A DNA stretch of 64,000 bases from Verrucomicrobium spinosum DSM 4136 = JCM 18804 (GTDB taxonomy: Bacteria > Verrucomicrobiota > Verrucomicrobiia > Verrucomicrobiales > Verrucomicrobiaceae), in contig NZ_ABIZ01000001.1 in the NCBI RefSeq assembly GCF_000172155.1, positions 372,001 through 436,000 on the forward strand, given 5' to 3'. Made by a program: the position numbers and the translations under genes. Below the pieces are notes generated by a model. It was not told the DNA's origin, ran no database searches, and worked only from the letters and a program-made list of their open reading frames with translations. Shown here one piece after another: positions 19,223 to 57,036 of this stretch (within the stretch, counting starts at the first letter, position 1; each line of letters opens with the position of its first letter).

Positions 19223-19257
19223 AAGGCGCGTCTGTGAAAGCGGACGCGCCTTTTTTG
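19223..19257 (+). terminator. Intrinsic terminator after the protease pair
   Basis: The stem GGCGCGTC / GACGCGCC is followed by TTTTTT. It starts 45 bp after the stop of the pseudoprotease gene and is among the clearest terminators in the window. Confidence 0.92.
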
Positions 19258-19340: not shown

Positions 19341-19456
19341 TGTGATTGAAGTACCGCCTTCAGGCGGCGTATTTGAGAAGCTCTCGCCGAAGATTGATGT
19401 GATAGAGACTTGCGACTGAGCCCACTGAAGGCGGTACTCCAACCCTGGCATGATCG
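19341..19456. repeat. GTTGGAGTACCG paired-hairpin element, copy 1
   Basis: Two outward-facing half-units, each with a short palindrome (CCGCCTTCAGGCGG on the left; TGAAGGCGGTACTCCAACC on the right), flank a ~50-bp core containing GTGATAGAGACTTGCGACTGAG. It is the first of three elements that fill most of the 814-bp gap between the protease pair and the PSD1 cytochrome gene. Confidence 0.85.
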
Positions 19457-19543
19457 TTTGCTCTTTGATTGAGAGCGGCGGGCGCTGCTGGGATTGAATT
19501 CCCAACAGCGTGACTGAGACTTCTATCATTCATTAAATACTCG

Positions 19544-19655
19544 CACCGTGGTTGGAGTTCCGCCTTTAGGCGGGCATTGGAATTGTTGAAGCGAAGCGAC
19601 GTGATGGAGACGCACGACTGAGCCGCGTAAACGCGGAACTCCAACCACGCCACGA
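19544..19655. repeat. GTTGGAGTACCG paired-hairpin element, copy 2
   Basis: Same layout as copy 1, with different palindromes: CCGCCTTTAGGCGG on the left and CCGCGTAAACGCGG on the right. The core is GTGATGGAGACGCACGACTGAG-like and in the same orientation as copy 1. Stem bases differ but still pair, a covariation signature. Confidence 0.85.
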
Positions 19656-19766
19656 GCGCTTTCTCGTGGCGTGGGGACGATGGGCGCTGTTGGCATGTTG
19701 TTGCATGAACCACGAGCTCAAGACTCAACAGGGCGCAGCGCTGCCTATCCTTCATTGAACATCCGC

Positions 19767-19880
19767 AGCGTGGTTGGAGTACCGACTTTAGTCGGCTCAG
19801 TCGCAAATCTCCGTCACGTCAATCTCCGGCGGAAGTTCCCAATACGCCGACTAAAGTCGGTACTCCAACCCTGGCACGGA
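19767..19880. repeat. GTTGGAGTACCG paired-hairpin element, copy 3 (inverted core)
   Basis: The palindromes are CCGACTTTAGTCGG and CCGACTAAAGTCGG. The core (CTCAGTCGCAAATCTCCGTC) is inverted relative to copies 1 and 2. The left flank ACATCCGCAGCGTGGTTGGAG matches that of copy 2, so the repeat extends beyond the hairpins. Half-units recur at 47300-47335, 47827-47871 and 52477-52520. Confidence 0.85.
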
Positions 19881-23037: not shown

Positions 23038-24522
23038 ATGAAGAAGCCATCGATGTTATCACCAAGAACTCTGAGCCGCCGGGATCTGCTGGCGGCCAGT
23101 GGGCAGGGGTTCGGTCTGCTGGCGCTGGGATCGCTCCTGCAGAGTGAGTCGCTTCACGCAAAAGCGTCGGCAGAAGGGCGGGCACCCATGCGTGCCCCGC
23201 GGGCGAAGCGGGTGGTGCAGCTCTTCATGGCGGGGGCCGCGAGCCACATCGATCTTTTTGACTACAAGCCCGCGCTCATCAAGCACCACGGCGAAGCCTC
23301 GGACTTTGGCGAGCCGGTGGAGGCGTTTCAAAATGGTCTGGGTCCCTGGAAGAAGCCGGTGTGGGACTTCAAGCCCTACGGCGGAAGCGGCAAGATGCTG
23401 AGTGAGGCGGTGGCCCCGCTGGGGGCCTGCGTGGATGACATGGCGTTTGTGCACAATCTGGTGGGCAAGACAGGGGTGCACTCGCAGGGCACACTGCTCC
23501 AGGCCACGGGATTCAACCTGCCGGGATTTCCCGGCATGGGCTCGTGGGTGAGTTACGGACTGGGATCGCTTAGCGAGAACCTGCCCTCCTTTGTGGTGCT
23601 GCCGGATCATCGCGGGTTCGCTTCCAACGGGCCCAAGAACTGGGATGCGGCGTTCCTTCCTTCCCAGCATGCGGGCACCATCATCTATCCCGGTGCCGAG
23701 GTGCCCATTGCGGATCTCTATCCGCACAAGTCGGGAACTTATGTCAGCGCCCGGTCCGAGGTGGCGGGGCAGGATCTGTTAAGCCGCTTGAACCGTCAGC
23801 ATGCGGCGCTGCATGGTGGGGACCCGCGTCTGGACTCCCGCATCCGCAGCTATGAACTGGCGGCGAAGATGCAACTGGCCGCCCCTGAGGCGCTCGATAT
23901 CTCGGGCGAGCCTACGCGGATCAAGGAAATGTACGGCATCCAGGAGCATCGCAAGGTGTGGCCCACGGAGATCAATCCTGCCGAGGAGGCCGACTGCATG
24001 GGGCGCAAGTGTCTCACGGCGCGTCGCCTGCTGGAGCGCGGCGTCCGTTTTGTGCAGATCTGGAGCGGCAACGACAATGGCTTTCCACGACGCAACTGGG
24101 ACAGCCATGAAGACGTCGAGCGGGATCATGGGCCGCTGGCTTGGGGCATGGCCAAGGCGGTGAGCGCCCTCATCCTGGATCTCAAACAACGTGGCCTGCT
24201 GGAGGATACACTGATCCTCTGGACCACCGAGTTTGGCCGTATGCCCTCCACGCAAGGCGGCTCAGGGCGGGATCACAATCCGTACTGTTTCACCAACTGG
24301 CTCTGCGGTGGCGGCATTCAGGGCGGCGTGACCTATGGCGAAAGCGATCAATGGGGCTACAAGCCGCTGGACCGGGATCACCCCACGCAGGTGTATGACA
24401 TCCACGCCACCATGCTGCACCTGCTGGGCATCGATCACGAAAGACTGACCGTCCGCCACAACGGCATCGACCGCCGTCTGACCGACGTGCACGGCCATGT
24501 GATCAAGGAAATACTGGGGTGA
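23038..24522 (+). CDS. DUF1501 family Tat-exported protein
   Basis: A 494-aa protein with a twin-arginine signal (LSRRDLLAASGQGFGLLALG, RR at residues 14-15). The body is the DUF1501 fold, a sulfatase/alkaline-phosphatase-like superfamily member: VVQLFMAGAASHIDLFDYKP near the start, GKTGVHSQGTLLQATG, and WTTEFGRMPSTQGGSGRDHNP near the end, which supplies probable metal ligands. It follows the PSD1 gene by 18 bp and is clearly its operon partner. Tat export suggests the protein folds with a cofactor or metal before leaving the cytoplasm. Substrate unknown. Confidence 0.93.
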   Translation: MKKPSMLSPRTLSRRDLLAASGQGFGLLALGSLLQSESLHAKASAEGRAPMRAPRAKRVVQLFMAGAASHIDLFDYKPALIKHHGEASDFGEPVEAFQNGLGPWKKPVWDFKPYGGSGKMLSEAVAPLGACVDDMAFVHNLVGKTGVHSQGTLLQATGFNLPGFPGMGSWVSYGLGSLSENLPSFVVLPDHRGFASNGPKNWDAAFLPSQHAGTIIYPGAEVPIADLYPHKSGTYVSARSEVAGQDLLSRLNRQHAALHGGDPRLDSRIRSYELAAKMQLAAPEALDISGEPTRIKEMYGIQEHRKVWPTEINPAEEADCMGRKCLTARRLLERGVRFVQIWSGNDNGFPRRNWDSHEDVERDHGPLAWGMAKAVSALILDLKQRGLLEDTLILWTTEFGRMPSTQGGSGRDHNPYCFTNWLCGGGIQGGVTYGESDQWGYKPLDRDHPTQVYDIHATMLHLLGIDHERLTVRHNGIDRRLTDVHGHVIKEILG

Positions 24523-47089: not shown

Positions 47090-48101
47090 GCTTGGGCAGC
47101 TGCCCAAAGGAATTGAACGTCAGGGGTAAGGCGCGGCAAGCGGAGCGCTTGCCCTACAGCCCGGGGTGGTTGGAGGTTGGGTCGGATGCAGCGTCATGGG
47201 ACGCTTGGAGCGCAGCGGTCGTTGCCAATCTGCGCTGCCCTTTCGCTAGCCCATCTGTCTCCTTCCCGCCTGGCGCAGCCAAATCACCGCCCCCGTTCCG
47301 CAGCAGGGTTGGAGTGCCGCTTTTAAGCGGAATCACACCCCGCACGTCTCATGACGTCCGTCCATCCCCCAGACACCCAAGCCGTCGTTGGCCGGTCGGG
47401 CGTTTTCCACCTGGGCAAAATCAAGGAATCCGCGAAACCTGATTCCGCTTTTAAGCCAATGCCATCAGGGAAAAGCTGGTGAGGTCGATGATTCGCCTTT
47501 GGCGAACGAGCTGAGGGCTGAAAGCCCGGCATGATAGCAGCCTTGGGCAACGCCCAAGGTTGGCGTTGGTTATAGAGGTTGAGGGCTGTAGGCCCGACGT
47601 CATTCAGGGATGCTCGTCATAGGCAGACTTGTTGACACCGGGCCTACAGCCCTCATGGGTAGTTTGGCCATCTATCCCTGGGGCGTTGCCCCAGGCTGGT
47701 ATGAACCCGGACCTTCGGCCCTTCTGAAAGGGGCTCACCAGTTACAGTCGTGGCGGTTGCGCCATCGCGGCTCCGGGGCGCGCCAAGGCAAAACAGCAAG
47801 ACGATGCGTTTTCCCTGATGGCATTGGTCCCGCATGCGGGACGGCACTCCAACCCCGGCGCGGACCTTTTGCAGACACAAGTTCCTCACGCCGCCCTGCT
47901 GCCATACTACAACACACAGCCAGTGCCCCCTCCGGCGAGGATTTCCTCCATTGCGTCAGCTCAAGTCCGGTGTCTGGAGTCTTCTAGTCTGGCGTCTGCT
48001 GGCGAAGCCGGCCCAAAGATTACACTTTCCCCCCGCACCTTCCGTGTTAAACTCCGTTCCCCCGGTCCGTCCCGGTCTGGGCCACACACGTACTGAAGCA
48101 A
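47090..48101. other. 1-kb gap: hairpin repeats and a MITE-like element before leuC
   Basis: In order: a GGCAAGCGGAGCGCTTGCC hairpin within a 60-bp repeat (47114-47174, inverse of 52554-52618); part of the double-palindrome family (47193-47239); a GTTGGAGTGCCGC half-unit (47300-47335); the MITE-like element (47458-47825); an inverted GTTGGAGTGCCG half-unit (47827-47871); and an AGAC-type tract (47959-48010). No gene was recognised. Confidence 0.75.
47458..47825. mobile_element. MITE-like element with 17-bp terminal inverted repeats, copy 1
   Basis: The 368-bp element is bounded by AATGCCATCAGGGAAAA and its exact complement. Inside are several hairpins: GGGCTGAAAGCCC, CCTTGGGCAACGCCCAAGG and a GGACCTTCGGCCC/GAAAGGGGCTC segment. 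No coding capacity was seen. A shorter inverted copy lies at 56636-56868; the extra ~110 bp here carry duplicate hairpins. It sits just inside a GTTGGAGTGCCG repeat pair, as if inserted into it. Confidence 0.85.
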
Positions 48102-52338: not shown

Positions 52339-52613
52339 CGCACGGGGAGGACGTCCTCGCCGGGAGCGGACCCTGTAGCGCAGATTGGCCATCGGCATCA
52401 GTCGCCGGAGAGGGCCTTGGCTGTGGGTTCCAAGACATCAGCAGGGCGTTGTGAGGAACTTGAGACTGTAGAAGGTCCGCGCCGGGGTTGGAGTACCGCT
52501 TTTAAGCGGAATCACTCCGCAAGCGTCTCACGACGACACCCTCCGCCCCAACGCCCAACCACCCCGGCGACGCTGTAGGGCAAGCGCCCCGCTTGCCACG
52601 CCATACCCCTGAC

Positions 52614-56587: not shown

Positions 56588-57036
56588 GGGGAGTGAGGCA
56601 TCCGGGGTTCTTTGGCAGAGGAGATTCACCGTACAAATGCCATCAGGGAAACGGAGAGTGTTGCCGCTTGTCCTTGGTGAGTCCCGGAATCGCGATGTTG
56701 CATCCTCGCTATGCAGGAGGCCGCAATGCCCCTTCAGAAGGGCCGAAGGTGCGGCTTCAATCCAGCGTTGGGCAACACCCAAGGCTGGGATTACTCCGGG
56801 CCTGCAGCCCTCAGCTCGTTCGTAAAAAGGGAAATCATCGGCCTGGTTATCTTTTGCCTGATGGCCTTGGCATAAATGCGGTAAAGACGCAAAGATCCAC
56901 AGTGTCCGAAAATGCAGCACTCGTTCGAGGCTGAAGATACGTTCTCGGTCACGTCAAAAGGCTGCCTGTTCCGGCAGCTTTGGGGTTGGGTGGGCCTGTT
57001 CAAGAGGGGTAGAGCATGCTGCCGGCCAGAAAGGTT
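56582..57036. other. 455-bp gap with a MITE-like element
   Basis: Most of it is the MITE-like element (56636-56868). The remaining ~170 bp before the next gene end show a GGCTGCCTGTTCCGGCAGC hairpin at 56961-56979 (possibly a terminator of the minus-strand gene) and nothing else. Confidence 0.7.
56636..56868. mobile_element. MITE-like element, copy 2 (inverted, shorter)
   Basis: It begins AATGCCATCAGGGAAA and ends TTTTGCCTGATGGCC, an imperfect complement. The sequence is the inverse of 47458-47825 with shared CCTTCAGAAGGGCCGAAGGT, TTGGGCAACACCCAAGG and CTGCAGCCCTCAGCTCGTTC, and it lacks ~110 bp of the first copy. Confidence 0.82.

Follow-up and report, generated by a model that had tools for sequence, protein, structure and literature searches.

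An array made up of three pairs of facing hairpins, which are 101, 97, and 99 nt long, lies between two genes of Verrucomicrobium spinosum within the 64,000-nucleotide stretch of DNA analyzed here (the window; Table 1). The locus raises the question of what these units are, whether it is the shape or the letters of their hairpins that is conserved, and what could have spread them.

The array and its neighborhood

Each half-unit is built from a GGAG foot, 2 nt, a 5-bp stem, and a TTNA loop. An earlier note on this DNA had described every half as a fixed sequence followed by a palindrome that always pairs. The three facing pairs are real, but the exact 13-mer GGTTGGAGTACCG occurs in only three of the six array halves, with GGTTGGAGTTCCG in two and GATTGAAGTACCG in one, and a perfect 5-bp stem is present in five of the six, the exception being the right half of unit 1. 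With up to two mismatches allowed, GGTTGGAGTACCG has 9 matches in the window compared with 1.21 expected, a number reached by none of 100 shuffled sequences. The further copies placed by the note near 47318 and 52496 are also genuine, and the first of them proved to be a doublet at 47307-47854 with its right hairpin split by a 372-bp element.

The core of the third copy had been described as inverted. The inversion itself is supported by 87% complementarity over 60 nt between 19385-19444 and 19772-19831, but it is not limited to the core: since the unit ends are inverted repeats and the interior is asymmetric (CTCAG after one half, CGTATT or GCATTGG after the other), it is the entire unit that is flipped. 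Spacer-containing repeats also run through the array, one of 99 nt with 71% identity at a step of 202, and others of 51 nt with 61 and 82% identity at steps of 206 and 222. Because the spacers are repeated too, the array looks, from its letters, like a tandem cluster of units together with their flanks.

Core sites of integron attC elements read GTTRRRY and RYYYAAC. An attC identity was considered for the repeats and rejected, as their conserved letters, GTTGGAG, end in G.

All three family sites in the window (the array, 47307-47854, and 52486-52509) are located between long ORFs, with the hairpins downstream of genes, and this placement would suit a function in RNA, such as that of a terminator, an attenuator, or a 3'-end stabilizer. 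Such a role is nonetheless highly improbable, given that an Rfam search of the window gave no match, that family copies occur on both strands, and that wobble is rare at the top two stem pairs (2 and 1 of 152 copies). A weaker point against it is that the array comes after a terminator-like hairpin; a terminator scan around that hairpin (19223..19252) found one, which is not above shuffled sequences (mean 1.0). As single-stranded DNA, units 1-3 are predicted to fold better than their shuffled counterparts (z of -4.50, -6.95, and -8.95). The predicted fold of each whole unit is one long hairpin between its halves and not two small ones; the small hairpins alone are predicted at -5.6, -5.4, and -4.4 kcal/mol.

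Table 1. Features of the window that relate to the hairpin family; positions count from the first letter of the window.
Feature	Position	Strand	Description
Upstream neighbor of array	ends 19178		PDZ-domain ORF
Terminator-like hairpin	19223..19252	+	13 pairs then T run; after upstream gene, before array
Unit 1	19344..19444	.	101 nt; inverted hairpin pair
Unit 1 left half	19344-19367	plus	Perfect stem, apex CC, loop TTCA
Unit 1 right half	19421-19444	minus	Reads CCGCCTTCAGTGGG; broken stem, 3/5 pairs
Unit 2	19550..19646	.	97 nt; inverted hairpin pair
Unit 2 left half	19550-19573	plus	Apex CC
Unit 2 right half	19623-19646	minus	Apex CG
Unit 3	19772..19870	.	99 nt; orientation opposite to units 1 and 2
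Unit 3 left half	19772-19795	plus	Apex AC
Unit 3 right half	19847-19870	minus	Apex AC
Downstream neighbor of array	starts 19993		PSCyt/PSD1 ORF
Fourth doublet	47307..47854	.	Right hairpin split by 372-bp element
Fourth doublet left half	47307-47330	plus	Apex CT
Fourth doublet right half, hairpin top	47438-47455		Split from guide by insertion
Non-autonomous IS4-family copy	47456..47827	.	372 bp; inside right hairpin of fourth doublet
14-bp apex TCCCGCATGCGGGA	47828-47841		Directly after 372-bp IS4-family copy
Fourth doublet right half, guide GGTTGGAGTGCCG	47842-47854	minus	
Single half-unit	52486..52509	+	Apex CT; long ORFs end 52272, start 52953

Size and distribution of the family

The genome was searched as a single contig of 8,220,857 bases (8.22 Mb), in which the window covers bases 372001-436000. 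It holds 107 exact copies of GGTTGGAGTACCG, 58 forward and 49 reverse, compared with 1 for the reversed-pattern control, and the 24-mer GGTTGGAGTACCGCCTTTAGGCGG was found at 186 sites with up to three mismatches (control 0). Copies were sampled in 51 stretches around listed copies, together with others (~822 kb), a sample that omits some copies, for example those at 23542 and 1104726. Among the sampled copies are 35 facing doublets of 74-252 nt, which account for 70 of the 182 half-units, the other 112 being unpaired under the detection rule. In the genome at large, 58 of 174 sampled family copies lie within 1.5-2.0 Mb, which is in part an effect of the sampling.

A unit has inverted repeats at its outer ends, as would be the case in a double-stranded MITE of a cut-and-paste transposon with the terminal repeats GGTTGGAG and CTCCAACC. 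This explanation is very unlikely: each half has a covarying hairpin of its own and a fixed loop rule, neither of which terminal repeats need, and halves also occur singly or in outward pairs ~33 nt apart.

Of 68 genomes from the taxonomic family, 9 contain TTGGAGTNCCGNNTTNANNCGG, as do 13 of 386 genomes drawn from the order, several of them with a single copy. One of these genomes, G089, has 14 family sites, 10 of which are among those listed, and a lone match in G375, which is not a hairpin, is probably due to chance. Literature searches on REP, RAYT, and REPIN repeats and Verrucomicrobia did not reveal the GGAG hairpin family among the papers listed, and a full-text search for Verrucomicrobium spinosum together with repetitive extragenic palindromic repeats found no paper. 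GGAG is absent from the main text of PMC3733652, PMC8266576, and PMC6006769.

Conservation of pairing in the hairpins

For the analysis of covariation, copies were selected with GGTTGGAGTNCC, a pattern that specifies pairs 1 and 2 on their left side and is blind to pairs 3-5. This gave 174 copies, and removal of 22 with TCCCGCAT after CCG left 152. Watson-Crick pairing is seen at pair 4 in 143 of these (CG 120, AT 20, TA 3), with 2 wobbles and 7 mismatches, and likewise at pair 5 in 143 (CG 81, TA 38, GC 20, AT 4), with 1 wobble and 8 mismatches. A TTNA loop is also found in 143 copies (TTTA 126, TTCA 15, TTAA 1, TTGA 1). All five stem pairs are formed in 132 copies, among which the apex types are CC (55), CT (34), AC (19), CG (19), CA (3), and TC (2), and 105 of these perfect copies (95 of 118 distinct ones) have a TCA 0-2 nt 3' of the hairpin.

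When 6 copies interrupted by an IS4-type element were set aside and 45 identical 32-mers collapsed, 101 distinct rows remained. In these rows pairs 1-3 are nearly invariant, and Watson-Crick pairing is found in 93 at pair 4 (65.4 expected) and in 94 at pair 5 (42.8 expected), values not reached in any of 20000 shuffles, which ignore kinship. Paired cells amount to 94.7% compared with 81.6 when shuffled (0 of 500 shuffles reach this), and the covariation score is 0.308 compared with 0.069 when shuffled (0 of 500) and 0.085 for the best slid alignment, with controls that again ignore kinship. Two of the five measures, pairs changed on both sides (2) and further pair types (7), were not above shuffles. 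The proposal that the palindromes vary and still pair is thereby upheld at both pairs 4 and 5, and the data support conservation of the hairpin and not of its letters. The note saw in such compensation the hallmark of selection for a hairpin, but a like pattern could arise if whole hairpins were exchanged or amplified. The GGAG foot is invariant in the 101 rows, which were themselves chosen by GGTTGGAGTNCC; a looser set is also mostly GGAG.

Outside the genus, both top pairs are Watson-Crick in 51 of 55 copies listed from ten genomes, and G-C is common at pair 4 (20 of the 55). This count excludes the congeners G065 and G066, whose listed copies include several wobble or mismatched tops. Within V. 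spinosum the top pairs are identical in both halves of 23 of the 35 units. Over all 35 units, top pairs are Watson-Crick within halves at 138 of 140 positions and complementary between halves at 115 of 140, a comparison that favors the within-half figure, as the halves had been preselected for at least three paired positions. The long fold between halves that is predicted for whole units could be an alternative conserved pairing.

An IS4-family element at hairpin tops

The element that splits the fourth doublet is one of many. Ends like CCAATGCCATCAGGGAAA, with up to two mismatches, occur at 51 forward and 51 reverse sites in the genome (control 0). A 382-aa ORF is present in two copies (1688 and 1734 bp long), and the one in L208 scores 177.7 bits against the IS4 model NF033592 (cut-off 115), and there are many non-autonomous derivatives of 325 and 371 bp. 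The GGAG-repeat guide is found on at least one side in 31 of 39 paired element copies sampled, and on neither in 8. The 8-bp repeats that flank the element are hairpin tops: 12 of the 17 copies without the 14-bp top have such repeats on their two sides, differing by no more than one mismatch. Furthermore, the hairpin is intact in G065 at sites where V. spinosum has the element (L259/L225 and L268/L084). On this comparison of sequences, the element appears to insert at REP-like hairpin tops with 8-bp target duplications.

An IS4-family element is likewise located at the axis of a REP palindrome in the case of ISRm22 from Sinorhizobium meliloti, as described in excerpts of PMC1525189. The direct repeats of ISRm22 are 6 bp, compared with 8 bp for the element here, and the many 325- and 371-bp derivatives are a further point of contrast.

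Several minor observations concern the same element. A degenerate 237-bp copy lies at 56634-56870 in the window. The 14-bp apex TCCCGCATGCGGGA takes the place of the 8-bp top at 22 of the 32 junctions on the guide side, compared with 2 of 46 on the opposite side, and this replacement occurs beside either end of the element. A 2.1-kb copy at 3874-6006 of L046 (genome 1516601-1518733) contains a match to the group II intron family RF00029 (49 bits), together with putative ORFs resembling reverse transcriptase, apparently in two frames.

Orthologous sites and exchange of hairpin tops

Between the two genes that flank the array, V. spinosum has three doublets; between their orthologs G066 has one, and G065 has about two, the second of which is split across a contig break; in both congeners one hairpin at this site is interrupted by an IS4-type element. 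This difference among three congeners and the many dispersed copies support the suggestion that the family behaves like mobile DNA.

Matching of individual halves between congeners gave 26 pairs, under a filter loose enough for one V. spinosum half (L039:6215) to be used three times. The same top pairs are kept in 20 of them. In L273/L049, pair 5 differs on both sides (G-C versus T-A). Both top pairs are changed in L197/L039, a match that is ambiguous because another G065 half matches the same V. spinosum half with its stem unchanged. One-sided changes are found in two matches (one G.T wobble, one mismatch), and two more are shifted, apparently by a small insertion. The match between L296 and L061 is probably a repeat. 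Two other cases that look compensatory, L293/L072 (CC versus TC) and L294/L073 (CT versus CC), fall outside the 26 filtered matches.

These comparisons bear on the idea that the hairpin top is swapped as a block, through gene conversion, template switching, or strand transfer by a transposase, or that a few palindromic variants have been amplified, so that compensation would arise without selection on each copy. In keeping with this, few apex types account for nearly all of the 132 perfect copies, the top pairs are unchanged in most matched halves, and the 14-bp top stands in place of the 8-bp one at most guide-side junctions of the IS4-family element. However, several apex types are found on each of several flank backgrounds, and the one-sided changes look like intermediates. 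Since its clearest case, L197/L039, the sole match with both pairs changed, is ambiguous, block exchange is considered rather unlikely.

Relation to known palindromic repeats

The inverted, spacered doublets and the dispersed, high copy number of the family are features of REPINs, which in Pseudomonas consist of inverted doublets and have been proposed to move as units (PMC3116915). Excerpts of the same source show further likeness between the REPINs of Pseudomonas fluorescens SBW25 and the doublets described here, in spacers, in tandem clusters that include flanks, in compensatory changes, and in singlets as likely remnants. In contrast, the GGAG family has another sequence, a GGAG foot, and no adjacent RAYT gene. 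A RAYT or Y1 gene flanked by the repeat itself, which is a further mark of REPINs, was not found within 1.5 kb of 30 Y1 loci of V. spinosum; only a sister repeat flanks such a gene, at the locus L011 described below.

With regard to the hairpin, the family has the short perfect palindrome, the foot 2 nt away, and the TTNA loop of group 3 (Mb type). The example of this group is REP-Mb of Marinomonas sp. MWYL1, which consists of GTAG, 2 nt, a perfect 5-bp stem, and TTTA, and the two families are alike in having a tetranucleotide foot, a 2-nt gap, the TTNA loop rule, and stem letters that are partly free (excerpts of PMC8266576). In vitro, TnpA-REP Mb needed loop bases 1, 2, and 4, with base 3 free; a stem mismatch strongly reduced cutting, stem positions 2 and 3 could be changed without effect, and a change at position 4 led to less cutting (PMC8266576). 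The cut sites were CT and CA, and on CT substrates it was the final two foot letters that came under selection (PMC8266576). The feet differ, GTAG there and GGAG here, with the last letters AG common to both; stem position 4 is sensitive in REP-Mb but variable in the GGAG family, and no RAYT gene was found linked to the GGAG family.

GTAG repeats have been reported from PVC bacteria and are abundant in Opitutus terrae (excerpts of PMC3733652). Like the GTAG and CGTC palindromic superfamilies, the GGAG family consists of short, tagged palindromes in many copies, but its tag is neither of these, with GGAG in place of the GTAG foot that defines the first superfamily. The repeats look like a known kind of mobile repeat with an unusual tag and no enzyme gene alongside.

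We think it likely that they are a REPIN-like miniature family spread by a Y1 single-strand (HUH) transposase, the enzyme itself being inferred. What is observed of this is the build, the copy number, the covariation, and the number of doublets that differs at one site in congeners. The mechanism proposed is that a Y1 HUH transposase from the IS200/REP group would bind foot, stem, and loop in single-stranded DNA and cut beside the hairpin, with the TCA 0-2 nt 3' of it as a guessed cut site, and the doublet would then be re-inserted elsewhere. Because a copy with a broken hairpin could no longer be copied, the copies in circulation would be those that pair, with the top two pairs free to vary in their letters. 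Counting against this reading are the lack of a Y1 gene beside the family at the loci scanned, the GGAG foot in place of GTAG, the variability of stem position 4 despite its sensitivity in Marinomonas, and the prediction that the single-stranded DNA of a whole unit forms one long hairpin. Further points against it are the 112 of 182 half-units that stand outside doublets, the two covariation measures no higher than in shuffles, the missing sister repeat at the G066 ortholog of the candidate gene L011, and the much wider occurrence of L011 relatives than of the repeat (both described below). Natural variation in more than 100 copies matches much of the in-vitro selection from Marinomonas (loop T, T, and A with a free third base, and a perfect stem) and departs from it at stem position 4. 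If the proposal is true, the preference of single-strand REP transposases for structure over sequence extends to another phylum.

Search for the transposase

The genome of V. spinosum has 39 Y1_Tnp matches, 11 of which were taken by position as second halves of listed frames. Scans of Y1 loci looked for the motif, or for the foot plus a 5-bp stem and TTNA, and covered 30 loci of this genome (L009-L038) with 1.5 kb on either side. The earlier note had envisaged a RAYT or Y1 gene bounded by these hairpins. No such gene was encountered: GGTTGGAGTNCCG is absent from all 30 loci within 1.5 kb on each side, and 28 Y1 sites are no closer to sampled family copies than random points are (median distance of 39 kb to the nearest copy compared with 16 kb), the closest being 3.7 kb away. 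No family member was found alongside a Y1 gene at the loci scanned from V. spinosum, G009, G065, G066, G067, G089, G339, and G077, and in G009 no listed Y1 site is within 7 kb of a listed family copy. Three other matches (L142, L146, and L162) were obtained when foot gaps of 0, 1, and 3 nt were also allowed.

A sister repeat, GGAG-TA-CAGGC-TTCA-GCCTG, has 32 sites in the genome with up to two mismatches. Inverted copies of it bracket L011, an IS200-type tnpA gene, the upstream one with 2 mismatches; they also bracket the ortholog of L011 in G065, and were not found at the locus of the G066 ortholog. The L011 protein scores 74.9 bits against the IS200 model NF033573 (cut-off 55), which it passes, and 19.4 bits against the RAYT model NF047646 (cut-off 80), which it does not. 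Four of the five proteins of L009-L013 pass the IS200 model, L013 failing at 53.5 versus 55, and a Y-x-x-x-Q motif was read in them by eye; the RAYT model is passed by only one of 11 V. spinosum proteins tested, L017 (81.9 versus 80). Orthologs of L011 with 97% identity occur only in the high-copy congeners G065 and G066, which supports its candidacy, and the best relative in G009, a genome with 30 family copies, has only 54% identity. A TnpA of the L011 type would be the best candidate for the transposase of the GGAG family, as yet unproven.

To take L011 as the proven enzyme was rejected on several grounds. Other hairpin repeats lie closer to the gene, its relatives in the g9 genomes have GTAG-CCAGGGGTC hairpins on their flanks, and relatives occur in 59 of 68 genomes compared with 9 of 68 for the repeat.

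The copies might instead be relics of a family that was spread by a Y1 enzyme and no longer moves, the enzyme having since been lost or its own flanking repeats having changed class. Both routes have precedents in excerpts of PMC3686654, in which repeat classes with no linked transposase are common, gene loss is known for other REP classes, and a change of class in the repeats that flank a transposase is termed an 'orthoswitch'. The lack of a Y1 gene beside the family is consistent with this, as is the bracketing of L011 by a sister repeat that shares foot, spacing, and loop class with the family and has a different stem. We regard it as doubtful, however, in that perfect 5-bp stems are still present in 132 of 152 copies and the difference in doublet number at one site among congeners fits a fairly recent spread. 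Relics and block exchange would each fit a REPIN-like origin, and the rival explanations are not all exclusive of one another.

A more specific possibility is that the repeats are a GGAG-tagged class of REPIN for whose movement an IS200-type (YxxxQ) TnpA acts in trans, recognizing shape and the TTNA loop and not the letters of the stem, so that several Watson-Crick tops, including the 14-bp one, would coexist and swap as cassettes. In this detailed form the proposal is speculative and unlikely.

The short IS200-like tnpA genes L009, L010, L011, L012, and L013 are each flanked by different inverted hairpin repeats. With several stem types and five repeat-flanked short TnpA genes present together, the question of which enzyme moves which repeat can be tested in this genome. 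A variant of the sister repeat with CAAGC is itself clustered, with about eleven copies at genome positions 1547720-1549380, mostly ~150 nt apart.
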